A stretch of DNA of 64,000 bases, taken from NCBI RefSeq assembly GCF_029338515.1, contig NZ_CP119988.1, positions 3,658,001 through 3,722,000 of the forward strand. The letters are read 5' to 3'. This document shows positions 35,447-47,558 of this stretch, piece by piece (positions within the stretch are counted from its first letter, which is position 1; every line of letters starts with the position of its first letter). This DNA comes from Haloglomus litoreum. Lineage in GTDB: Archaea > Halobacteriota > Halobacteria > Halobacteriales > Haloarculaceae. The notes beneath the pieces were generated by a model, which saw nothing but the letters and a program-made list of their open reading frames with translations, was not told the origin of the DNA and did no database searches. The position numbers and the translations under genes are program-made.

Positions 35447-35731
35447 TCAACTCGACCCCGTGGAAGCCCCGTCGCGGGATCCAGATTCCGGTGTTGACGA
35501 GTCGGTCGGTGTCGGTGTTGACGAGTCGGTCGGTGTCGGTGTTGACGAGTCGGTCGGTGTCGGTTGTTCGGCAGCTGCGACCTCATTATCATCCTCAAGT
35601 CCGGACGCGTCGATCGTGACCTCGACCTCCTCCTCGTCGCTGAGGACCGCGTAGCTGTACCCGCCGGCGAGACTCAAGCCGAACACGAGAGCCAGGACGA
35701 GCACGACCAGGAGCCGCCGCCGATCAGGCAT
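35447..35731 (-). CDS. Mini camelysin-like membrane protein with Thr/Pro/Ser repeats
   Basis: A 94-residue protein. Residues 8-28 form an N-terminal helix (LLVVLVLALVFGLSLAGGYS) and YAVLSDEEEVEVTIDA follows, which recalls the SipW-type cleavage region seen in the big camelysin proteins upstream (ALFNDTESF...). The tail consists of three copies of an 8-residue unit TPTPTDSS, encoded by an exact 24-base tandem repeat at about 35491-35562. Thr/Ser-rich repeats often are O-glycosylated. Its ATG lies inside the end of the signal peptidase gene (8-base overlap), so they are co-expressed. Confidence 0.65.
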   Translation of the reverse strand: MPDRRRLLVVLVLALVFGLSLAGGYSYAVLSDEEEVEVTIDASGLEDDNEVAAAEQPTPTDSSTPTPTDSSTPTPTDSSTPESGSRDGASTGSS

Positions 35732-37376
35732 CGCCACCACCTCCACCGACGAGCGGGAGCCGACGATAGACGAACCGGATCGGCTCGACGACCGCGTAGC
35801 CCACGTAGTAGAGCAGGACGAACGGCACGGCGATCAGCGGATTGCTGGACAGCGGGCGAGGTCCGCCGCGGTCGCCCCCGCCCCCGGTCGCTGTGGCCTC
35901 GGCCGCTGTGGTGTCAGCCTCCGCGTCGGTGGCCCCGGTTGCGGCGGTATCGGCCTTCGCGGTGGCGGCGGGAGCGTCGGCCGTTCCGGTGTGCGTTCCG
36001 GTGGACGGGCCAGCGTCGTCCGCCGTCGGATCGTCGGCGACCGGAGACCTGATGTCGGTCGACTCGTCAGCGGCCGTGATGGCCGGTTCCGGGTCGCTCG
36101 CGGCAGGCATGATCGCCGGTTCCGGGTCGCTCGCGGCAGGCATGATCGCCGGCGTCAGCTCGCACCGGCTGGCGACCGGTCTCGGCGCCGGTGGGTCGGT
36201 GGCCACCGCCCCGGGAGCCGCGCCGTCGGGCGATCCCTCGCCGGTGGCCGTATCGGACCCCATCCGGGGTGCGCCAGCCCCCGCGTTGCGCGTGACCGTA
36301 CCCGGGTCGTCGGCGACCCGCGTGACGGCCCGCTCGGCACCGCCGTCGTGCGCTACCGCGGTGCGCCGAGGGGACGGCCCCGCGGACGGCTCCGCGGACG
36401 GCTCCGCCGATGATTCAGGCGCGGAGCCGGGCGCCTCCGCAGCCGGCCGGTCGGCGTCCTCGGCCGGCGGCGAGCCGCCGAACAGGTACATCGCGCCGAC
36501 GAGGACGAGCGTCGCGCCCACGGTCGTCGCCGCGGTCACGGACCAGACCTCGCGAGTCATGTACGCCACCCAGACGGCATACGCCGTGAACAGGAGCAGC
36601 ACCCCGACGGTCAGCCGGAGGTCCATCGGAGTGAGCGTGATGCCCCCCGCGGCCTCGTCGGGCTCGGCGCTCGTCTCGCCCACGGCGGCCGCAGCACCGC
36701 CCCCCCCGCTCTCGGCAGCCCCGCCCCGACCGGCGGGCTGGTCCGGGTGGTCGTCGGGGTCGTCCGCCCCGGTCGCGGCCGTGCCGTCGGCCGCCGTGTC
36801 GTCCCCGCCCCGGGTAGAGCGAGCGAGCACGTAGGCCTCCGAGAGCACCAGCAGCGCCAGCGGCGCGACGATCAGGGTGAGCATGCCCGTCGTGGTCCCG
36901 GCGAACTGGACGACGTAGCCCATCAGCGGGATGACGAGCAGGTAGCCGCCGACGGTCATCACCTCGCCGACGACCTGCTCGGCCGACACCAGCGAGGGGT
37001 CCGGGTCCTCGTTCGCGTCGCCCGCGGTGCGGAACGCGAGCCCCTGCTCGGTCTCGACCACCTCGATCACGCGATGGGTCGTCGGGCGGGACTCGCCGCT
37101 CCGCCGGAAGGTCACGACGTCGCCCGTGGCGATGCGCTCGGGCGGCACCTCATCGACGACAATCACGTCGCCGGGACTCATGGCCGGCTCCATGCTCCCC
37201 GAGAGCACGACGTAGCTCGCGTCCGCGCCGACGACCGCTGGCACGGCGTAGACGACGAACGGGACGACGAGCGCGATCAGGAGGAGGACGCCGAGGACGT
37301 TGGCGGCGGTCCGCCAGGTCGCTCGGGTCGGTCCGGTCTCCGTCCCCGTCGGGGGGGCTCGCTCGTCAGTCGTCAT
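35724..37376 (-). CDS. S26 signal peptidase with long C-terminal extension (SipW-type)
   Basis: A 550-residue membrane protease. A helix at about 25-45 is followed by YVVLSGSMEPAMSPGDVIVV with the catalytic Ser, and GDVVTFRRSGESRPTTHRVI with the His used in place of Lys in archaeal/ER (S26B) enzymes. Three more helices follow (to residue ~300), then about 180 residues of Ala/Thr/Ser/Pro-rich sequence with the direct repeat ASDPEPAIMPA twice, and a last hydrophobic segment near the C terminus. Ordinary archaeal signal peptidases are only about 150-300 residues. Its location directly after six SipW-type substrates strongly suggests a dedicated enzyme. It overlaps the upstream gene by 11 bases. 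Confidence 0.85.
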   Translation of the reverse strand: MTTDERAPPTGTETGPTRATWRTAANVLGVLLLIALVVPFVVYAVPAVVGADASYVVLSGSMEPAMSPGDVIVVDEVPPERIATGDVVTFRRSGESRPTTHRVIEVVETEQGLAFRTAGDANEDPDPSLVSAEQVVGEVMTVGGYLLVIPLMGYVVQFAGTTTGMLTLIVAPLALLVLSEAYVLARSTRGGDDTAADGTAATGADDPDDHPDQPAGRGGAAESGGGGAAAAVGETSAEPDEAAGGITLTPMDLRLTVGVLLLFTAYAVWVAYMTREVWSVTAATTVGATLVLVGAMYLFGGSPPAEDADRPAAEAPGSAPESSAEPSAEPSAGPSPRRTAVAHDGGAERAVTRVADDPGTVTRNAGAGAPRMGSDTATGEGSPDGAAPGAVATDPPAPRPVASRCELTPAIMPAASDPEPAIMPAASDPEPAITAADESTDIRSPVADDPTADDAGPSTGTHTGTADAPAATAKADTAATGATDAEADTTAAEATATGGGGDRGGPRPLSSNPLIAVPFVLLYYVGYAVVEPIRFVYRRLPLVGGGGGDA

Positions 37377-38502
37377 CGTCCACCTCCTCGAACTCGGCGT
37401 TCTCCTCGACGAACTCCAGTTTGGCCGTGCTCGAAACCGAGAAACTGTCGTCCGTGTCGAGCTGTTCGTCGGCGATCTCACAGGGCCGGGAGGGAGCGCC
37501 CCCGGCACCTCCGCCGTTCCCGTTCCCGCCGCCGCCCGTCGTCCCGCCCGGGTCGTACAGCTGGACGGCCGCGTCCGGGTCGTTCCTGAGCGCGGTCCCC
37601 GACGTCCGGTCGTCGTCGTCCCGGTAATCGTAGATGGTCATCCGGGGTCCACCGTTGTACCCGAAGAACAGCGTGACGAAGTCCACCTCGACGTCCGTCT
37701 CCCAGTCGACCGACGTGGGGTTGTTCGGATCGGCGTTGTTGACGCTCGTGACCGCGGGGTTGATGGGGCCGGCCGAGTCCGTGCAGAAGCCGATGTTGCT
37801 GATGGCGTGCTCGTTGGTCGGCGTCTCCGCCGGGGTCGGCGTCGGGGTGGCACAGCCCTGCGGGTCGTACGGGTTCGCCGGTGAGTCGTCGTTCCGGCAC
37901 TGTCCGGCGAAGAACTCGAAGTCGAAGTCCGCCGTCTCGAAGCCGGCACCGCTCGTCGTGTACTCCCACTCGACGAGCAGGTAGCGGGACGCGTCGCCGT
38001 CGAGGCAGCCGTCGTCGCCGAACCGGAGCTTCGTCCCCGGCTGCTCGGCGAGGTCGCGGAGCGTCCGGCCGTCGATGTCCTCGCCGTCGCTGTCGTGGAC
38101 GAACTCGCCCGCGACCCCCTGGGCATCGGCGTAGCTGATCGTGAGTTCCAGCACGTCGGCGAGTCCCGCCTCGGACGGGCAGGTCGGCCGGAGCCAGACG
38201 TGGCCCGGGTTGTTCGCGGGGCCCGGAAGCGCGAGCTTCAGGAGCCCGCTGCCGTCTCTATCCGAGGGCTGGAGCTTCGCCGTCAGGCTTCCGCCGTCCG
38301 TCTCGGCCTCCCCGTCCTCGATCCCCTCCCACGTGACCGCCAGATCGAGGGAACCGCTTCCGAACAGGCCACCGAAGGACTCCTCGTCACGCAGGATCGC
38401 GGCGCTCCCGACGCCACCGGCGACCCCCAGCCCGCCGACGCCAGCCGCCGCTGCCAGTACCTTTCGGCGGGCGATGCCCCTATCCCCGTCGTGCTCGCTC
38501 AT
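37366..38502 (-). CDS. SipW-type secreted protein, divergent camelysin member
   Basis: A 378-residue protein with signal region IARRKVLAAAAGVGGLGVAG and LRDEESF, a diverged form of the FNDTESF motif in its five relatives. The mature part starts GSGSLDLAVTW and contains NNPGHVWLRPTC and the closing DFDFEFFAGQCRNDD, matching the beginning and end of the camelysin/TasA beta-sandwich. A C-terminal domain with Cys pairs, a Gly/Asn-rich linker and an acidic tail is extra. It overlaps the signal peptidase gene by 11 bases, so it is the member most tightly linked with the protease. A candidate base, anchor or minor subunit; that role is inference. Confidence 0.75.
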   Translation of the reverse strand: MSEHDGDRGIARRKVLAAAAGVGGLGVAGGVGSAAILRDEESFGGLFGSGSLDLAVTWEGIEDGEAETDGGSLTAKLQPSDRDGSGLLKLALPGPANNPGHVWLRPTCPSEAGLADVLELTISYADAQGVAGEFVHDSDGEDIDGRTLRDLAEQPGTKLRFGDDGCLDGDASRYLLVEWEYTTSGAGFETADFDFEFFAGQCRNDDSPANPYDPQGCATPTPTPAETPTNEHAISNIGFCTDSAGPINPAVTSVNNADPNNPTSVDWETDVEVDFVTLFFGYNGGPRMTIYDYRDDDDRTSGTALRNDPDAAVQLYDPGGTTGGGGNGNGGGAGGAPSRPCEIADEQLDTDDSFSVSSTAKLEFVEENAEFEEVDDDD

Positions 38503-38873
38503 GTTCCCCCCCGGGCCGTGTACTCCCAGCGGTTCGGCCCTGCTTCGGTGTTCGGTGACACTCCCCATAAATCTCCGGACTCCCCGGGTAGGGGACAGGT
38601 CCGGCGGCGATCCGCCCCCCGCGACCCGCCGGGAAGCCGACGAGACCAGCAGTCGGCGGCCCAGCAGCCGGGTCCCGCGGCTCGTGACGGTGGTGGCGTG
38701 CTGGCACCCTGCCGGGGGCCGTTCCGGGACCGGCCGTCTGTTTTGCTCGCCATCAGTTCAGTCCAGGCCCACCGGCGGAGTCGAACCGCCGTCGCGCACC
38801 CGCGTGGGGACCGCCGGACGCGCAGGGCGACCGGCGTCGTGGTGGAACCAGGGAGACGCATCCGTCCCCCACC
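38503..38873. other. 371-base gap with tRNA-like element and no gene
   Basis: Between the secreted proteins at 38874 and 38502. It holds the first tRNA-like element (38768-38808) and GC-rich sequence. Frames in the gap give arginine/proline-rich, unconserved translations. Nothing else is supported. Confidence 0.5.
38768..38808 (-). repeat. tRNA-like T-arm element, copy 1
   Basis: On the minus strand GGCGG TTCGACT CCGCC forms a perfect 5-bp T-arm with a canonical T-loop; GGTGGG follows and CCCAC lies upstream at 38804-38808. The core 38768-38792 (25 bases) is identical with four other copies in this gene array. This copy is 65 bases after the stop of the preceding gene. Confidence 0.8.
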
Positions 38874-40355
38874 TCACTGGTTCCGGCTCTGTTCCGTGTA
38901 GTACCGGAGGTCGAACCCGAGCGAATCGCTCTGGATCTCGTTGCCGACCCCCGTCGGAACTCGCCACTCGAAGCCGATGCACAGCGTGCCGCCGTCGCCG
39001 GGAAGCTCGCGGGAGCCATCGTCGTACGGCTGGCCGTCCAGTTCGATCCGCCGTCCGCCGTCGATGGGCTCCCCAGCGCTCTCGAACAGGTCCGCGACGG
39101 TCGCGTAGCCCGACGCGGGGTAGATCAGCCGCTCGCCGTCGTCGAGCGCGTTGTCGCAGTCCCGGTCGTACCAGAACCGGACCTCGACGGCATCCGGCAG
39201 TTCGCTGTTCCCGTCGCTGTCGACGGTACTTTCGGGTTCGGTCATGCCGTTCTCGGCGCCGGTCAGGTTCAGCACGTCCAGCCAGAGGTACGCCGGGTTG
39301 TGGCAGTTGTGGAGGCTGAACGTGATCTCCCCCGTGTCGCCGGGTTTCACGTCCGAGAGCTCGATCAGGTGGTCCTGCTCCGGATACGCCTCGCTCCGGA
39401 AGACCTCGGGGACATCCAGGTTCGACCCGCTCCGGACGCTGCAGCCCGAGCAGATCGTAATCGGTGACGCGTTTACCGGGTCCGTTCCGTCCAGAAGGTC
39501 GACCGTGTTATCCGGGTGGCCGTCGAACGCACGCCACTCGTCGACGGTCCCGTCGATGCCCTCAGTGCCGTACAGTTCCGCCGCCTCGTTGAACGCCGGG
39601 ACGACCGTGACGCAGAAGCCATCGGACAGGGGCCCGACGGCACCCCCGTCGGTGTAGCCCGCGTCCCAGAGGTGGTTGCTGAATCCCGGGTCGACGGAGT
39701 AGCTGTCCCGACCGCTCGGCGGGTCGTCCGTGACGAGCCAGCTCGCCCCGCTGTCGAGCCCGTAGTAGTCGAACGACGCCGCGCCGCCGTCCCCGCCGCC
39801 GGAGCGACTGCCGTGGACCACCACCAGGCTCACGTTCCCGGTGTCGACGTTCCGGTAGACGAAGACCGAACTCGTGTTCGGGTCCTGGATGGCGTCCCTC
39901 TGCGAGGCGAACACCGAGCCCTCGTAGTCGTAGTAGTCCTCGATGGGAACGGTGTCCTCGACGGCGTCGATACAGTACGTCTCCCCACCCTGGACCAGCA
40001 GGAACTCGTCGGCATCGCAGTCACAGCAGACGCCGGGGATCTCGTCGGCGCTGGCCGTGGCCCCCGGACCGCCGTACTGGACCTCGTTGAACGACTGCAG
40101 GCCGTCGCCGTCGTGGTCCGGGTAGGCGTTGACCGCGTGCGTACCGACGTCGCCGGTCCCGGGGTGTGGCCCGCTGTAGGTCTGCTGCCAGTCCACCCGC
40201 AGGTCGAGGTCGCCCGCCGCGAGCGTGTTGCGCGCGAACGATTCGGTGTCGTTGAACAGGGCGCTCGTCCCCAGCCCGGCCCCCAGTCCAGTGACACCCA
40301 CGGCTCCCGCAGCGGCGAGTACCTTCCGTCGCGTGATGTCGATGTGCTCCGTCAT
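38874..40355 (-). CDS. SipW/TasA-type secreted protein
   Basis: A 493-residue protein. Signal region: ITRRKVLAAAGAVGVTGLG, then GTSALFNDTESF. Mature start: LAAGDLDLRVDWQQTY. The camelysin core elements are ELSDVKPGDTGEITFSLHNC, HNPAYLWLDVLNLTG, VEVRFWYDRDCD and the last strand VGNEIQSDSLGFDLRYYTEQ. A region of about 230 residues (about 85-310) with several cysteine pairs (CCDCDADE; CSGCSVR) is inserted before the core. It lies between the relatives at 37366 and 40429 in one directional array. A predicted fibre subunit or adhesin. Confidence 0.82.
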   Translation of the reverse strand: MTEHIDITRRKVLAAAGAVGVTGLGAGLGTSALFNDTESFARNTLAAGDLDLRVDWQQTYSGPHPGTGDVGTHAVNAYPDHDGDGLQSFNEVQYGGPGATASADEIPGVCCDCDADEFLLVQGGETYCIDAVEDTVPIEDYYDYEGSVFASQRDAIQDPNTSSVFVYRNVDTGNVSLVVVHGSRSGGGDGGAASFDYYGLDSGASWLVTDDPPSGRDSYSVDPGFSNHLWDAGYTDGGAVGPLSDGFCVTVVPAFNEAAELYGTEGIDGTVDEWRAFDGHPDNTVDLLDGTDPVNASPITICSGCSVRSGSNLDVPEVFRSEAYPEQDHLIELSDVKPGDTGEITFSLHNCHNPAYLWLDVLNLTGAENGMTEPESTVDSDGNSELPDAVEVRFWYDRDCDNALDDGERLIYPASGYATVADLFESAGEPIDGGRRIELDGQPYDDGSRELPGDGGTLCIGFEWRVPTGVGNEIQSDSLGFDLRYYTEQSRNQ

Positions 40356-40362
40356 CGTCCAC

Positions 40363-40374
40363 CCCCTGTCGGGG
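40363..40374 (-). promoter_or_regulatory. Start-proximal hairpin masking Shine-Dalgarno-like sequence
   Basis: CCCC GACA GGGG on the minus strand, 8 bases before ATG 40355. The 3' arm is part of AGGGGGTG, which can pair with the anti-Shine-Dalgarno end of 16S RNA. Confidence 0.5.
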
Positions 40375-40378
40375 AAGA

Positions 40379-40415
40379 CCCACCGGCGGAGTCGAACCGC
40401 CGTGCTCCGAGTGGG
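40379..40415 (-). repeat. tRNA-like T-arm element, copy 2
   Basis: Same 25-base core as copy 1 at 40379-40403. The closing stem is GACCCAC with GTGGGTC, seven full base pairs. It begins 14 bases after the stop of the upstream gene. Confidence 0.82.
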
Positions 40416-40428
40416 TCGAGTTCGTTGT

Positions 40429-42420
40429 TCAGTTGATCTCTGCGCCGCCCTCTTCTCGCGTCGAGACGCCACCCATGTTCTGGAGCGTCACCTGGACTTC
40501 AGGCTCGCCAGAATCCTGGACTCCGCTGGAACCAGCGTCGTCGTCCTCGGAGAATGTCTCGTACCCGCTGTCCTCCGTGGCAAGTACATCGACATCTGAA
40601 GAACCGCTGATGCTGATGCCGTCGAAGGTCACGGAGAAGGGGGCCCCATCGGCGTTTCCGTCCCCGTTGTAGTCGACGTAGTCCTCGAAGGCGACGGCAC
40701 CGACTTTGTTGTTCGTCAGGGTCCCCCCTTCGACTGAGACAGTCGCACTCGTCGGAAGGTTCCACGCTGCGACACCGTACTCGGAGTCCTTCACTTCATT
40801 ATCGAGAACGTCGGCATCAACGCCACTCTGGATCGAGGAGAGGAACAGTCCCCAGTTCTCCGAACTGCCAGTGGTCGACGAGAGGAGGTTGTCCTGAATC
40901 GTAAACGGCGAAGCGTTCGAGAAGTGCAGATTGTGCCAGATGCCGAGGCGGGATGATTCGATATCGTTGTCCTCGATCAGTGCGGCACCTCCACTGTTGG
41001 CGTTGTAATACGTGTTCGTCTGGATTCCTATACGCACATCACGCATGCAATTTCCAGCAATCTCCGGATACGAATTGAATATTGGAATTATTCCGCGGTC
41101 AGTATTCTGGAAGAGGCACCCCTTTGCTACGCCACCTGTGGCCCCGCTGTTGGGCCCCCAGAAGTACAGTCCAAAGGGAAGATTCCGGAAGATGGTATTG
41201 CGGACAGTCATGTCGCCGTTCCTGCCGGGGCCGGTATTGAGGACACCGTAGCCCGCGTTCACCTCTGCACCGTTCAGACTGGTCCCACCGGTGAGCTCCG
41301 GACTGTCTCCATCAACGACGACTCCGTCGATGACGACCCCGTCCGACTGGACATCGAGGACGATTCCAGCCGAATCATCCGTAATCGGGTAGATGGTCGC
41401 ACTAGGACTGCCAGCATTGTTCGCGGTCTTCCCGCTAGTCCCGGCGGTAGGGCCCTTGATGGTGATGGGCTTGTCGATGGTCACGCCTCCACGGTAGTCG
41501 CCGGGAGGGAGGGAAAGGGTTCCACCGGACGGCGTCTCATCGATAAGTCCCTGGAGGTCGTTGAACGGAACGTCGTTATTCCGGGTCTGCTCGGCGACGA
41601 ATTCCAAGTCGAAGGAAAGTTCGTCGCCCTGAACCTCGTTGCCGACCTCGGCCGGAAGTTCGAGGAGGAGATACATGAACAGCCGATCCGGCTCGTCACC
41701 CGATGAGCTGGGGTCGCCGGACCCGATTGCGAGCGGCATTCCGCTCCCGTCGACGATAGTTACGCCGCCATCGAAGCGTTCGTACACCTGCGAGAACGTC
41801 GTGTAGTCGACGGTACCGCTCACCGCTCCGTACTCCGGTCCCGGGATTGCTGCCGGCATCTGGTACGATACCGTCTCGACGCTGTCACTGTCGTCGTTCG
41901 TCTCCGGCAGCAGGTTGGCGAGGTCTTCCCGGGTCCCGGTGCCGTCGGTCGGTCCATCGAACGACTGCCAGAGTGTCGTGAGGAGCAGGTCGTCGAGTTC
42001 GCCGCCATCCGAGGGGTCCGTGTTCGTCTCCGGTTCCGGATTGGCATTCGGTCCGGTCCCTTCGTTGCTATCGAGCCCTCCGGAAAACACCTGAACGTAG
42101 CCGGGGTTCCCCTGCACGATCATCTCGAAGCAGTAGACGTAGTAGTCTCCCGGCTTCACGTCCGACAGTTCGATTACAGCCTTCGGTGTATCCCCGTCTT
42201 TCGTCACGGTCGGGCCAGGAGCGTCCGCGTAGTTCGACGCGATTAGCTGGCCGTTGACCTGCAGATTCAGCGTCCCCGCCTGGATCGAGTTGTTCAGGAA
42301 CGATTCCGTGTCGTTGAACAGGGCACTCGTGCCCAGCCCAGCGCCCGCACCCGCGGCTCCCACCGTGGCGAGCCCCGCAAGCGCCTTCCGTCGCGTGAGT
42401 TCGAAGCTTCGATCTGTCAT
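40429..42420 (-). CDS. SipW/TasA-type secreted protein with right-handed beta-helix
   Basis: A 663-residue protein. Signal: LTRRKALAGLATVGAAGAG, then SALFNDTESF and IQAGTLNLQVNG. The camelysin core (about 45-290) has ELSDVKPGDYYVYCFEMIVQ, NPGYVQVF and VGNEVQGDELSFDLEFVAEQ. From about 300 on, the phrase LSLPPGDYRGGVTIDKPITI and repeated turns such as VVIDGVVVDGDS and DNDIESSRLGIWHNLHF show a parallel beta-helix of the NosD/pectate lyase class. Such folds bind polysaccharides or act as long adhesive stalks. It is a display version of the fibre subunit. GC is lower than in its neighbours. Confidence 0.85.
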   Translation of the reverse strand: MTDRSFELTRRKALAGLATVGAAGAGAGLGTSALFNDTESFLNNSIQAGTLNLQVNGQLIASNYADAPGPTVTKDGDTPKAVIELSDVKPGDYYVYCFEMIVQGNPGYVQVFSGGLDSNEGTGPNANPEPETNTDPSDGGELDDLLLTTLWQSFDGPTDGTGTREDLANLLPETNDDSDSVETVSYQMPAAIPGPEYGAVSGTVDYTTFSQVYERFDGGVTIVDGSGMPLAIGSGDPSSSGDEPDRLFMYLLLELPAEVGNEVQGDELSFDLEFVAEQTRNNDVPFNDLQGLIDETPSGGTLSLPPGDYRGGVTIDKPITIKGPTAGTSGKTANNAGSPSATIYPITDDSAGIVLDVQSDGVVIDGVVVDGDSPELTGGTSLNGAEVNAGYGVLNTGPGRNGDMTVRNTIFRNLPFGLYFWGPNSGATGGVAKGCLFQNTDRGIIPIFNSYPEIAGNCMRDVRIGIQTNTYYNANSGGAALIEDNDIESSRLGIWHNLHFSNASPFTIQDNLLSSTTGSSENWGLFLSSIQSGVDADVLDNEVKDSEYGVAAWNLPTSATVSVEGGTLTNNKVGAVAFEDYVDYNGDGNADGAPFSVTFDGISISGSSDVDVLATEDSGYETFSEDDDAGSSGVQDSGEPEVQVTLQNMGGVSTREEGGAEIN

Positions 42421-42429
42421 CGTATACCC

Positions 42430-42441
42430 CCCCTGTTGGGG
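42430..42441 (-). promoter_or_regulatory. Start-proximal hairpin masking Shine-Dalgarno-like sequence
   Basis: CCCC AACA GGGG on the minus strand just before ATG 42420; the 3' arm lies in AGGGGGGGT. Confidence 0.5.
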
Positions 42442-42445
42442 AAGG

Positions 42446-42483
42446 CCCACCGGCGGAGTCGAACCGCCGTACGCCAGCGTGGG
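42446..42483 (-). repeat. tRNA-like T-arm element, copy 3
   Basis: Core 42446-42470 identical to the other copies. Outer stem GCCCAC with GTGGGC (6 bp). The 5' side reads CCCACGCTGG, shared with copies 4 and 5. It lies 14 bases after the stop of the upstream gene. Confidence 0.82.
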
Positions 42484-42497
42484 CTGGATGGTGGTGG

Positions 42498-44240
42498 CTA
42501 CACCCCGTCCGTCGGCGCGTCCGGCGTCGGATTATGGCGGCACTGCTCGGTGTAGAAGCCGAGATCGAACGTGACGGAGTCGGACTGGATCTCGTTTCCG
42601 ACGGTCGCCGGGAGCCACCACCCGAATCCGATGTAGTGGGTGGTCGACGGCTGGAAGCACTCACGATTCCCGGTCCCGGCGACTTCGTCGAAGTCGGTTA
42701 CTAGGTCCCCGTCGAGTGGAATCCCCCCTCCCGAGGATAGCGTGGACAGGTCCGAGGCCAGCGTTCCGGTGTGGAACACCTCCTCGCCGAGCGCCACCCC
42801 GGCGACCACGTCGTTGACGACATCCGCGAGGTTGGAGAAGTTCGCGTTGTAGTGGTTCGCCGGCGAGGATGCCACCCGGTCCCGGAGGAACTCGTCGAGC
42901 GTCGTGCCCGCGACGTTCTGCGGGTCACCGATGCCGACAGTGACGATGCGCGACGGGTCGTCGGTGCTGTCACCCGAAGGCGTCTTGATGTTATCCGCGA
43001 CGAGTTCGGTCTCGTCGAGTTCGCCGCTCGAAACCGTTCCGTCCTTGCTGTTGGTGGCGTTGTCGTACGCCTGATCGCCAGCGTCGGCCGACCAGTTGTT
43101 CGCGCGGGGAGCGGTCAGTGACGCCGCACCACTGGACGTATAGGTGGTGTTGACGTAGTTCGGCCCACCGTCGGTGAGGAGGACGATGACCTGCTCGGCA
43201 CCAGCGCGACCAGCGTTGTCGAGGTGCTGGTCGGCGATGTCGAGCGCCGGTGGCATCGGCGTGTTGTTGCCACCATTAGGCGTTCCGGACGGGAAGTCGA
43301 ACGACGACGAGCCGAGCGTGCTCGTGACGCTCACGCCGTCGCTATCGCCGAAGGTGATGCCCCCGACCTCGACGTCGCCAGCCCCCAGCAGGTCGTCCAC
43401 GAGGGTGTTGCCCGCCGACCGGAGCGAGTTGTACTCCGAGGAATTGAGCGATCCGGACCGGTCCAGGAGCACCATCACGTCCAGTTTGCCCCGCGTCGTG
43501 TCGAGGACGTTGTCGCCGTCGGTGTCGTACCACCAGACGGTCTTGATGTTCTCGGCCAGCTCACCGCCCGGGCTATCGTCGACCTCTCCCTCTGGCTCGG
43601 TCTCCCCGTTCTCGCTCTCCGAGAGGTTCCCACCCTGGAGCCAGACCCAGCCGGGGTTGTCACAGAGGTGGAAGCTGAGCGTGAGTTCGCCGAAATCACC
43701 CGGCTTCACGTCGCCCAGGTTGACGAGTGGCGCGGTACTCCCGTCGTCGAGTTTGGTGTCCGCGTTGTCCGTCCGGTTGCCCGTCGGGTCGAGGTCGTCG
43801 GGCGTGTCCGCGCCGTCCCGGCACGGGACGTAGTCTTCCTCTACGCTTCCGGCGTCCTGCGTTCCATCGCCGTCGAAGTCCGGGAACGCCTCGATGGCAG
43901 TATTCGCCATGTAGGCATCGAGATTGTCCTCGTGAACCCAGAGGACGGGATCCGTGGGATACGGCAGCCCAACGTAGTTCGACGTGTCTTCCGGTTCGGA
44001 TCGAGTGACGGTGAGTCCGTCTGTCGGATCACCAAATCCGACCGCCTGCGGGTAGGAGTAGTGCTCCTCCCAGTCGACCTTCAGGTCGAGTTCGCCGGCA
44101 GTGATCACGTTCTCCTCGAACGATTCGGTGTCGTTGAACAGGGCGCTCGTGCCGAATCCGGCACCGGCACCCGCAGCCCCCACGGCCCCCAGCGCACCGA
44201 GGACCTTCCGTCGCGTGATATCCATCTGTCGGTCGCTCAT
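42498..44240 (-). CDS. SipW/TasA-type secreted protein with inserted vWA domain
   Basis: A 580-residue protein. Signal ITRRKVLGALGAVGAAGAG, GTSALFNDTESF, TAGELDLKVDWEEH. The first part of the camelysin fold has NLGDVKPGDFGELTLSFHLC and DNPGWVWLQGG (about 174-204). A von Willebrand A domain starts near 253 with MIDAS LLDRSGSLN (Asp260, Ser262, Ser264) and continues with IVTVGIGDP near 420. The final camelysin strand, VGNEIQSDSVTFDLGFYTEQ, closes the protein. So the vWA domain sits inside the fold. vWA domains often bind proteins or surfaces in a metal-dependent way, so an adhesin role is likely. Confidence 0.86.
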   Translation of the reverse strand: MSDRQMDITRRKVLGALGAVGAAGAGAGFGTSALFNDTESFEENVITAGELDLKVDWEEHYSYPQAVGFGDPTDGLTVTRSEPEDTSNYVGLPYPTDPVLWVHEDNLDAYMANTAIEAFPDFDGDGTQDAGSVEEDYVPCRDGADTPDDLDPTGNRTDNADTKLDDGSTAPLVNLGDVKPGDFGELTLSFHLCDNPGWVWLQGGNLSESENGETEPEGEVDDSPGGELAENIKTVWWYDTDGDNVLDTTRGKLDVMVLLDRSGSLNSSEYNSLRSAGNTLVDDLLGAGDVEVGGITFGDSDGVSVTSTLGSSSFDFPSGTPNGGNNTPMPPALDIADQHLDNAGRAGAEQVIVLLTDGGPNYVNTTYTSSGAASLTAPRANNWSADAGDQAYDNATNSKDGTVSSGELDETELVADNIKTPSGDSTDDPSRIVTVGIGDPQNVAGTTLDEFLRDRVASSPANHYNANFSNLADVVNDVVAGVALGEEVFHTGTLASDLSTLSSGGGIPLDGDLVTDFDEVAGTGNRECFQPSTTHYIGFGWWLPATVGNEIQSDSVTFDLGFYTEQCRHNPTPDAPTDGV

Positions 44241-44246
44241 GGTTGA

Positions 44247-44258
44247 CCCCCTTCGGGG
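44247..44258 (-). promoter_or_regulatory. Start-proximal hairpin masking Shine-Dalgarno-like sequence
   Basis: CCCC GAAG GGGG on the minus strand, 6 bases before ATG 44240; the run AGGGGGTC could pair with 16S RNA when open. Confidence 0.55.
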
Positions 44259-44262
44259 AGAG

Positions 44263-44316
44263 CCCACCGGCGGAGTCGAACCGCCGTGCGACGATGGCAT
44301 CGCGGACCAGCGTGGG
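44263..44316 (-). repeat. tRNA-like T-arm element, copy 4
   Basis: Core 44263-44287 identical to the other copies. The 5' half CCCACGCTGG is separated from the T-arm by a further short stem-loop. It starts 21 bases after the stop of the upstream gene. Confidence 0.82.
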
Positions 44317-44337
44317 TTGAATCGCGTGCGTGCATGA

Positions 44338-46038
44338 TCAGTCAGGGTTCGGTCCGGTACCGTCGTTGTTCCGGCACTGCTGGGTGTAGAACCCGAGATC
44401 GAACTCCACCGAGTCCCCCTGGACGACGTTGCCGACGCTGGCGGGGAGCTCCCAGCGGAACCCGAGACAGTACGACTCCTCCGCGACGAAGCACTCGCGG
44501 CTGGCGGCGTTGTCGGGGTCCTCGTCGTCGAGCGTCCCCTCGTCGCCGACCTCGATGAACTCCGAGACGGGATCCGCGTCGAGCGCGATGCCGTCACCGT
44601 CCGTCAGTTCGGCGAGTGCCTGGGCGAGCGTCCCGTCGAAGAACACCTGTTCGGGCGCGAGAACGTTGGCGAGGGTGCTGAACACCGTCGGGATGTCCAG
44701 GGGATCGTCGACGTCGAAGAAGTACGGCGGGTCGCTGGTCGAGCCGGCTCCGGGCCCGGCCATCCCCTGAAGCGTGTTCACGCCGTTCGCCCCGGTGTCG
44801 ACCGCGATCGCGTAGAGGTCCGTCGGAGGATTCTCGGTGAGGTCGGCCTTTGCGTCGTCTGCGGCATCGGAAGGGGTGATGAACTCGTTGCCGTCGGTGC
44901 CCTCGAAGGCGTTCCCATCCGAGAGGACGATGTTGTCGTACTCGACTCCCGAACGCCCGTTATCGTCCAGCTCCTCCTGTGCGAGGTTCACCCCCTCGCC
45001 GATGTACGTCCCCTCGGCGATACTGACGGAGGCATACGGGTCCGGGTTCCCATCATCGACAGTCGGCGAGGGGTCGGCGGTGACGACGTTGGCGAGCTTC
45101 TTTCGGAGCCCTGTGAGGGCCGCCTCGACATCGTTCAGGTCCGAGGTGAGGCCCTGCAGGATGCCGACCCGTGGGATGTCGTCCGTGCTCCCGTCGAAGT
45201 ACGCCACGCCGACCTGGGCGTCCGCGCCCGTGTCGTCGAGGAAGTCGACGAACTGTCGGGTCCCCTTCTCGACGAGGTCGATCTTCGTGGTCTCACTGTA
45301 CGTGCTGCCGTTGATCGTGATGGAATCGTTCGAGACGACACCACCGTACTGGTTGTACAGCATCGACCCCGAGAAGTCCAGAGTGAGCATGATGTCCGCC
45401 GTCCGGCCGTCGCCCGGAACGTTATTGCAGTCATCGTCGTACCACATCTCCACCTGGATGTTCTCGGCGAGTTGGCCGCCGTCGACACCGTCGTCTCCCG
45501 ACTCTGACGGCACCGGCGTCCCCGGTTCCGGTTCGGGGTGTGCCCCGTCGTCCTCGTCGACGTTGGCGGCCTGCATCCAGATGTAGCCGGGATTGTCACA
45601 GAGATGGAGGCTGAAGGTGATCTCGCCAGTGTCCCCGGGTTTGACGTCCGATAGCTCCACGAGCGAGTCCTGTGTCTCGTTGCCGTCGAAGTCGTAGTCG
45701 TCGTCGAACCCCGGCGTGTCGCAGGTGAGGAAGTCGACGAGGTTCGCCTCCGTGTACTCGACCGCGTACGGCTCGGTCGGGTGGAGGACCGACTGGCGTC
45801 CGTCGCCGTCGTGGTCCGGGTGGGCGTTGACGTAGACGGGGTCGCCGGCCCCGTCGTACGTCTGCTGCCAGTCGACCAGCAGATCCAGCTCCCCAGCCGT
45901 GATACTGTTCCCCTCGAACGATTCGGTGTCGTTGAACAGCGCACTCGTGCCCAGTCCAGCCCCGGCTCCGGCTGCGCCGACGGCCCCCACGGCCGCCAGC
46001 ACCTTCCGCCGCGTGATGTTCATTCGTCGGTCGCTCAT
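44338..46038 (-). CDS. SipW/TasA-type secreted protein with inserted vWA domain
   Basis: A 566-residue close relative of the protein at 42498. Signal ITRRKVLAAVGAVGAAGAG, GTSALFNDTESF, TAGELDLLVDWQQT. Camelysin elements: VELSDVKPGDTGEITFSLHL, CDNPGYIWMQAANV, and the last strand VGNVVQGDSVEFDLGFYTQQ. The inserted vWA domain starts near 215 with MIDAS LTLDFSGSMLY (Asp221, Ser223, Ser225). Compared with its neighbour the vWA insert is diverged while the N-terminal signal region is almost the same. Predicted surface adhesin. Confidence 0.86.
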   Translation of the reverse strand: MSDRRMNITRRKVLAAVGAVGAAGAGAGLGTSALFNDTESFEGNSITAGELDLLVDWQQTYDGAGDPVYVNAHPDHDGDGRQSVLHPTEPYAVEYTEANLVDFLTCDTPGFDDDYDFDGNETQDSLVELSDVKPGDTGEITFSLHLCDNPGYIWMQAANVDEDDGAHPEPEPGTPVPSESGDDGVDGGQLAENIQVEMWYDDDCNNVPGDGRTADIMLTLDFSGSMLYNQYGGVVSNDSITINGSTYSETTKIDLVEKGTRQFVDFLDDTGADAQVGVAYFDGSTDDIPRVGILQGLTSDLNDVEAALTGLRKKLANVVTADPSPTVDDGNPDPYASVSIAEGTYIGEGVNLAQEELDDNGRSGVEYDNIVLSDGNAFEGTDGNEFITPSDAADDAKADLTENPPTDLYAIAVDTGANGVNTLQGMAGPGAGSTSDPPYFFDVDDPLDIPTVFSTLANVLAPEQVFFDGTLAQALAELTDGDGIALDADPVSEFIEVGDEGTLDDEDPDNAASRECFVAEESYCLGFRWELPASVGNVVQGDSVEFDLGFYTQQCRNNDGTGPNPD

Positions 46039-46044
46039 GGTTGA

Positions 46045-46056
46045 CCCCCTTCGGGG
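46045..46056 (-). promoter_or_regulatory. Start-proximal hairpin masking Shine-Dalgarno-like sequence
   Basis: CCCC GAAG GGGG before ATG 46038, identical in sequence and distance to the hairpin at 44247. Confidence 0.55.
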
Positions 46057-46060
46057 AGAA

Positions 46061-46148
46061 CCCACCGGCGGAGTCGAACCGCCGTCCCGCGGCGAGGCCG
46101 CGTCACGGGCCATCGGCAAGAGCCGACGACGACGTGTGCCAGCGTGGG
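46061..46148 (-). repeat. tRNA-like T-arm element, copy 5 (longest)
   Basis: Core 46061-46085 identical to the other copies; outer stem ACCCAC with GTGGGT. Between the stem halves are two extra hairpins, TCGGC TCTT GCCGA and GCGGC CTC GCCGC, giving an almost tRNA-sized structure of 88 bases. It is not a real tRNA because no proper anticodon loop or D arm can be drawn. Confidence 0.8.
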
Positions 46149-46169
46149 TCAGGGTATATGACGACTACG

Positions 46170-47558
46170 CTACGGGAGCGTGGTCGTCAGGCCGTTGTTG
46201 TTGTCCGACGTGAAGTTGTCATCCCCGGAGTACACGCCGCTGGTCGGGATGCTGACGTAGGGCTGCTCCCCACCGGCGCTAGCATTAACCCCGAACTTGT
46301 ACTCGTCCGTAGTGCCCTTGTCCAGGGCCGAACGTGGGACGACGACGGTGAACATGTTTCCACTCTTGGACATCGAGAAGCCGGATGGAAGTGCCGACCA
46401 ACCTGCCGAAGTGTCCTTCACCCACTCTGGAACGGCCTCGTCGACCGCGGAGTATCCGAAGGGTGAGTCCGGGAATCCTCCGTCGGGATCCCAGGCCAGC
46501 TGGAAGTCGTAGATGTCGTCGTCTTCGGAATCGGCGTTAAACGCGATAGAGAAGCTCGTGCTGGCAAAGCCTGGGTCTGCCAGACTGTACTCACTGTCTG
46601 CCGGCTCGTCGAATTCGATACAGTACACGACCTGCTCGGCACCGTAGGCGACATCGACGTTCAGGACCCCGTCGGGAATCGGCTGGTCGATACCGTCAGG
46701 ATTGACGTAGTCCGCCGAGTACGATTCGTCCTTGCACGGGTTCTCGGACCCGTCGTTGTGCCGGGCCTGCTCGGCGTAGAACGAGAGGTCGAACGAGAGG
46801 GTGTCACCCTGGATGATGTTCTCGACGGAGATCGGGACCTCCCACTCGAAGCAGATGCAGGGGTTGGTGACGTCCGAGTTCCCGGTGGAGTTGGTCGTCC
46901 CGTCGTAGGCCGCCTGCGAACCGGGCGTGGGATTGGCCACGCCGGTCCCATCAAGCGGGATTCCGGCCTGTAGGGCGGTGAGGAGTTCGCGGAGCGACCC
47001 GGAGAAGATCTCGGCCCCCGTCGAGTTCAGCGAGCCGTCCGACTCGTCGATGTCGCAGTACGACATCGTGACGTCGATGTTCTCCTCCAGTTCGCCTTCG
47101 CCGTTGTTGTCCTGGGGTTCGGGCTCGGTGTAGGGGCCGTCCCCACCTGGACCCTGCTCCGCCGTGCCGGTCAGTTCGCCGCACGCCCACATGTACGCGG
47201 GGTTGTCGTCGATGGTGAAGCAGAAGTACGAGTGACCGCTGTCACCGGGCTTGATGTCGTCGAGGTCCTGACTCATCGACGTGCCGTCCCCGTTGACAGT
47301 GGGAACATCGGCCGAACTGCCGTTGACCGTTTCGGTGAAGCTGTTGATCGTATAGCTCCCCGCCATTCCCTGGTCCTCGTGGACGACGTAGTCGACCGCG
47401 AGGTCCAGCTCCCCCGCGGTCATCATGTTCTCTTCGAACGATTCCGTGTCGTTGAACAGGGCGCTCGTGCCCAGTCCAGCCCCCGCCCCCGCGACTCCCA
47501 CTGTGGCGAGTCCCGCGAGCGCTTTCCGCCGCGTGAGTTGGTAGCGCTTGTCTGACAT
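46170..47558 (-). CDS. SipW/TasA-type secreted protein, first of array
   Basis: A 462-residue protein, promoter-proximal in the array. Signal LTRRKALAGLATVGVAGAG, GTSALFNDTESF, TAGELDLAVDYVVH. The camelysin core (to about 285) has DLDDIKPGDSGHSYFCFTID, DNPAYMWACGEL and the strand IIQGDTLSFDLSFYAEQARH. A C-terminal beta-rich domain of about 170 residues follows (VLNVDVAYGAEQVVYCIEFD), not recognised. Its signal is closest to that of the beta-helix protein. A likely major subunit since it is first in the transcript; that is inference. Confidence 0.82.
   Translation of the reverse strand: MSDKRYQLTRRKALAGLATVGVAGAGAGLGTSALFNDTESFEENMMTAGELDLAVDYVVHEDQGMAGSYTINSFTETVNGSSADVPTVNGDGTSMSQDLDDIKPGDSGHSYFCFTIDDNPAYMWACGELTGTAEQGPGGDGPYTEPEPQDNNGEGELEENIDVTMSYCDIDESDGSLNSTGAEIFSGSLRELLTALQAGIPLDGTGVANPTPGSQAAYDGTTNSTGNSDVTNPCICFEWEVPISVENIIQGDTLSFDLSFYAEQARHNDGSENPCKDESYSADYVNPDGIDQPIPDGVLNVDVAYGAEQVVYCIEFDEPADSEYSLADPGFASTSFSIAFNADSEDDDIYDFQLAWDPDGGFPDSPFGYSAVDEAVPEWVKDTSAGWSALPSGFSMSKSGNMFTVVVPRSALDKGTTDEYKFGVNASAGGEQPYVSIPTSGVYSGDDNFTSDNNNGLTTTLP

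Follow-up and report, generated by a model that had tools for sequence, protein, structure and literature searches.

A SipW-type operon with a repeated element at its gene junctions

The window, a 64,000-nucleotide stretch of the Haloglomus litoreum genome (contig NZ_CP119988.1, positions 3,658,001 to 3,722,000), carries on its minus strand an array of genes for proteins with SipW-type signal peptides, together with a signal peptidase gene:

46170..47558, minus strand: gene 1, secreted protein with SipW-type signal peptide (TIGR04088)
44338..46038, minus strand: gene 2, secreted protein with SipW-type signal peptide (TIGR04088)
42498..44240, minus strand: gene 3, SipW-type signal peptide protein with a VWA domain (TIGR04088, PF00092)
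40429..42420, minus strand: gene 4, SipW-type signal peptide protein with a NosD-like repeat region (TIGR04088, weak TIGR04247)
38874..40355, minus strand: gene 5, secreted protein with SipW-type signal peptide (TIGR04088, PF12389)
37366..38502, minus strand: gene 6, N terminus related-looking by eye, no family match
35724..37508, minus strand: signal peptidase I with SipW-like domain (TIGR02228 9.4e-30, NF046067 4.3e-28)

TIGR04088 matches in five of the six genes, with a SipW-like peptidase nearby, identify these as SipW-dependent (TasA/CalY-like) fibre genes. Among relatives of the genes downstream of the repeated element described below, 50 of 72 have a SipW-type signal peptide and some match the NCBIfam "fimbrial" models TafA, TafC, TafE and TafF, so that, judged by its sequence, the window operon looks like a TasA/Taf-like secreted-fibre operon of the SipW type.

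The junctions of this operon share a 23-base core (GGCGG-TTCGACT-CCGCC-GGTGGG), found on the minus strand in five exact copies at 38768, 40379, 42446, 44263 and 46061, with 0 copies expected by chance (100 shuffles). In all five, a CCCAC strand upstream of the core pairs with its GTGGG, and the CCCAC..GTGGG spans in the window range from 37 to 88 nt. The initial annotation had described the same positions, pairing and size range, while giving the core two bases too many (25). The elements and the hairpins that adjoin them are as follows, with matches to R1, a covariance model built from 14 short-linker junction elements:

46061..46148, minus strand: tRNA-like element copy 5, junction of genes 1 and 2; 88 nt, two extra hairpins in linker; R1 2.9e-4
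46036..46058, minus strand: hairpin (C4-5/G4-5) and gene 2 start region, directly 3' of copy 5
44263..44316, minus strand: tRNA-like element copy 4, junction of genes 2 and 3; one extra hairpin; R1 6.9e-7
44238..44260, minus strand: hairpin (C4-5/G4-5) before gene 3
42446..42483, minus strand: tRNA-like element copy 3, junction of genes 3 and 4; minimal form; R1 3.7e-10
42418..42443, minus strand: hairpin (C4-5/G4-5) before gene 4
40379..40415, minus strand: tRNA-like element copy 2, junction of genes 4 and 5; minimal form, 37 nt; R1 4.7e-11
40353..40376, minus strand: hairpin (C4-5/G4-5) before gene 5
38768..38808, minus strand: tRNA-like element copy 1, 3' of gene 5, next gene start 265 nt on; R1 1.0e-7

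All five elements lie 3' of a gene's stop codon. Copies 2 to 5 directly precede the start of the next gene, the C4-5/G4-5 hairpin following the element at once and the start codon coming after it. At these four junctions (40353-46058) the G-run before the start codon is held within the hairpin.

A minimal acceptor and T-arm fold conserved by compensating changes

Each element consists of an acceptor helix of 5-6 bp and a T stem of 6 bp closed by a canonical T-loop, the T-arm being stacked on the acceptor-like helix as in a t-element (tRNA-like element). Minimal copies measure about 37-45 nt, with a linker of 8-12 nt and no anticodon arm, and the long window copies have their inserted hairpins placed 3' of a GG in this linker. 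The next outer acceptor pair is G-C in copy 3 and A-T in copies 2 and 5, as previously annotated; it is unpaired in copies 1 and 4, which counts against the t-element reading, as does the lack of an adjoining hairpin at copy 1. In the window copies the acceptor strand is not followed by CCA, which fits the expectation for a tRNase Z substrate. Terminators were rejected as an identity for these structures, which have no T-run on their 3' side, and an Rfam scan of the window elements returned no family match.

It is scarcely credible that the elements are true or decayed tRNA genes. ARAGORN does call copy 5 a tRNA-Gly, but the length, short linker and missing anticodon arm of the minimal copies speak against this identity, and the Rfam tRNA model RF00005, for which 43 tRNA hits in the genome pass the cut-off, picks up 0 elements even at E<=10. 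The ARAGORN call (tRNA-Gly, gcc, at window 46058-46149) is false, and may sit in relatives' annotations.

Comparison across relatives revealed strong covariation in these helices. In an independent pattern scan, only CCCAC/GTGGG, the loop and its two closing pairs were specified. The three T-stem pairs that follow were unconstrained, and of the 74 archaeal matches 73, 73 and 74, respectively, can form them, by pairs of several types; permutation gives means of 56-70. The bacterial matches agree with the archaeal pairing. With the T-arm alone as bait, an acceptor complement was present in 40/47 cases vs. 27 (max 37) with shuffled strands, and in 32/47 the complement had GG behind it at offset 2-3, vs. 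9.0 (max 16). Some T-arm matches (e.g., L019 and L037) have no good acceptor partner. Among 119 distinct aligned R1 hits, 99.1% of cells are paired and 9 of 11 pairs have changed on both sides, with 0 of 500 shuffles reaching any measure and slid registers giving 29-59%; this alignment is fitted to the model, and the pattern scan and T-arm-only bait are the cleaner tests. The compensating changes include G-U pairs. What the initial annotation had called modest covariation within the window is thus strong once relatives are compared, and the compensating changes for which it had looked to homologous loci are abundant there.

These changes also bear on the proposal that the elements are recombination or integration sites for cassettes at the DNA level, either attC-like or att sites copied from tRNA. 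Repeats between cassette-like genes, and inverted-repeat ends with variable inserts, would suit such sites, but helices that keep their pairing even through G-U pairs, an orientation that follows transcription and an occurrence before 5S rRNA (see below) speak against this alternative, which the initial annotation had raised. The integron attC core sites RYYYAAC/GTTRRRY are moreover absent, the elements ending in CCCAC/GTGGG, and the T-loop/acceptor core (<=2 mismatches) occurs only 8 times in the H. litoreum genome, 0 of them at RF00005 tRNAs. We regard recombination sites as very improbable.

The linker GG, 2-3 nt past the acceptor strand, is a further fixed feature: it is present in 64 of the 74 archaeal matches and 14 of the 15 bacterial ones to a pattern that did not require it, and in 100/119 of the aligned hits vs. 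28 when shuffled. In the tRNA elbow, the D-loop residues G18 and G19 pair with the T-loop residues U55 and C56, and it is on this elbow pair that the RNA of bacterial RNase P stacks. Given this docking, the linker GG is most simply understood as a mimic of G18-G19, which would contact the T-loop in the same way.

Equivalence to the t-element upstream of 5S rRNA

R1 also matches the same genome at G000:C1:3943130-3943172 (8.6e-6), with 5S rRNA directly after: the element reads CACCGACACTGGTATCGCGACGGTTCGAATCCGTCGGTCGGCG and is followed by TTAAGGCGGCC, the 5S start. Its layout, CCGAC-acTGG-n5-CGACGG TTCGAAT CCGTCG-GTCGG, is that of the junction elements, and the model recovers an element directly before 5S rRNA in several other genomes as well. 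The fibre-operon elements thus share one sequence-structure profile with the 5S-adjacent element of their own genome, which also encodes an archaeal RNase P RNA and a tRNase Z. Holzle 2008 (RNA 14:928) and Holzle 2012 (Biochimie 94:940) are said to be the references for the Haloferax t-element upstream of 5S rRNA, the latter reportedly having looked for further tRNA-like elements in Haloferax.

The t-element before the 5S rRNA of H. volcanii is a tRNA-like structure processed by tRNase Z (PMC4326828), and a crRNA placed between two t-elements is freed in vivo by the action of RNase P and tRNase Z (PMC4326828; PMC4946936; also PMC3296008). The 3' cut by tRNase Z is published for the 5S element only (PMC4326828), and the 5' cut by RNase P for the t-elements of constructs (PMC4326828, PMC4946936). 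The fibre-operon elements resemble the Haloferax element in architecture, in being found by the same model and in that the RNA of interest begins directly after them; they differ in occurring as several copies that punctuate a protein-coding operon, some with extra linker hairpins and most followed by a hairpin and a start codon. Similarly, each inner fibre cistron lies between two t-elements like the crRNA of the synthetic t-element/crRNA/t-element constructs (PMC4326828, PMC4946936), but these are engineered and short, whereas the fibre cistrons are natural mRNAs of 1-2 kb.

Site and context also bear on the suggestion that the elements are binding or modification sites through which tRNA-handling proteins, such as T-loop methylases or pseudouridine synthases, regulate the operon. 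The T-loop sequence and linker GG would suit such proteins, but this offers no reason for a position between cistrons or for a site right before 5S rRNA, and we consider it quite improbable.

Distribution and context across haloarchaea

The initial annotation had proposed searching other haloarchaeal genomes with a covariance model, and of 392 genomes in the order, 191 have an R1 match at E<=0.01, a count that mixes mRNA and rRNA sites because the model also hits 5S elements. Of 148 genomes drawn from the phylum, all 11 with an R1 match at 1e-4 belong to the order. Among 97 relatives, 18 have matches to a T-arm pattern, often 2-5 of them spaced 1-2 kb apart, and nearly all of 80 haloarchaeal cases come after a stop codon and ahead of a gene in the same orientation.

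The C4-5/G4-5 hairpin after the element is likewise strongly conserved across the order, with a hairpin of at least 4 bp starting no more than 8 nt (mostly 1-3) after GTGGG in 70/80 haloarchaeal cases vs. 31 (max 43) when shuffled. Such hairpins leave some room for a reading in which the elements are never cut, and instead serve as stable structures that shield mRNA ends, impede exonucleases or, by way of the adjoining hairpin, adjust how the next cistron is translated. The predicted folds of the window elements are stable (-21 to -53 kcal/mol) and the conserved hairpin holds a G-run just 5' of the start codon, both in favour of this reading; a plain hairpin would suffice for such roles, however, leaving the TTCGANT loop, the fixed linker GG and the match to the 5S element unexplained. 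We consider uncut structures unlikely, though the least so among the alternatives.

A second SipW array in the H. litoreum genome, at about 278-285 kb (L009; G000:C1:278000-286000), uses the same T-arm with the acceptor GTCGGG/CCCGGC, in which both strands have changed relative to the window's. Elements at loci L094, L096, L105, L129, L140 and L141 precede DUF1102-type or other "MKRR.." secreted proteins, showing that element use is not restricted to TIGR04088 genes. Conversely, some SipW arrays of the order (e.g., in genomes G067 and G005) have other junction sequences and no element, which makes the element dispensable for the fibre system as such. In G067 (L074, L075), an array of about seven genes without T-arms has junctions that share another repeat (CGTTATTC..TTCGGCnCTTTGCAAAGG..CCCGGGTG).

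Kindred elements in bacteria and phages

The same pattern identifies elements whose T stems are perfect or nearly so and whose linkers carry GG, both in contigs of Lactobacillales, Streptococcus and Planctomycetaceae, including one Planctomycetaceae contig with four, and in 50 IMG/VR contigs. In many cases the element directly follows one small gene and precedes a second. Some long-linker viral matches may be tRNAs, either ordinary or decayed. The element-bearing stretch of Streptococcus phage Javan227 has no annotated feature, and in Mycobacterium phage Indlulamithi only the genes flanking the element are annotated, as hypothetical or membrane proteins. Kindred GG-linker mini-tRNA elements (L108, L111, L112, L116, L132, L135, L142, L147, L155, L175, L186, L187 and L257-L306) occur in bacterial (pro)phages and mobile regions (Lactobacillales, Streptococcus, Mycobacterium phage Indlulamithi, Planctomycetaceae), close to genes or in the gaps that separate them. 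Rfam gave no family match among the bacterial elements scanned, and literature searches on bacterial or phage mini-tRNA elements found nothing fitting.

Proposed processing of the fibre operon message

We propose that the junction elements are intercistronic t-elements at which the polycistronic fibre mRNA is cut into single cistrons, and put the probability of this reading at roughly 0.76. The predicted cutting is drawn from the equivalence to the 5S element; processing by RNase P and RNase Z, as the initial annotation had suggested, is the reading best supported by our analysis, in which R1 recovers the 5S t-element, a published tRNase Z substrate (PMC4326828). The junction element is a minimal tRNA mimic, its 5-6 bp acceptor helix resting on the T stem, and its linker GG could dock on the T-loop. 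The predicted cuts, by RNase P immediately 5' of the CCCAC strand and by tRNase Z about 2 nt 3' of GTGGG, would turn the long transcript into single cistrons, with the upstream cistron ending soon after its own stop codon. Each downstream cistron would start with the short C4-5/G4-5 hairpin that begins 1-3 nt past the element; this hairpin could shield the new 5' end, e.g., from 5'-3' decay, and set translation start. The purpose may be separate stability and stoichiometry for the fibre subunits.

In mitochondrial polycistronic RNAs, tRNA folds between genes mark the cuts. The fibre operon similarly has tRNA-like folds between genes, but mitochondria use real tRNAs while these are non-coding minimal mimics. 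RNase P sites in bacterial operon mRNAs are, as far as is known, irregular, whereas the fibre operon has a conserved dedicated element. What the bacterial processing (Li and Altman 2003, cited in PMC11143913) has in common with the predicted processing here is RNase P acting between cistrons. A broader proposal is evenly balanced in our estimation: a minimal tRNA-elbow mimic (acceptor, T-arm and linker GG, ~37-45 nt) might serve prokaryotes generally as mRNA punctuation, in the fibre operons and 5S precursors of haloarchaea and also, whether through independent origin or through transfer, in bacterial (pro)phage operons, with tRNA enzymes cutting messages into cistrons.

A covariance model is now at hand for an element group without an Rfam match, and the element itself is a naturally tested minimal tRNA mimic that can be used in RNA engineering. 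tRNase Z and RNase P gain defined candidate mRNA substrates in many haloarchaea. If cut as predicted, the junctions would show that tRNA punctuation of mRNAs also occurs naturally outside mitochondria: tRNA enzymes would set the operon's division and a hairpin would wait at each new 5' end, suggesting a route to separate mRNA stabilities for the fibre subunits of one operon.
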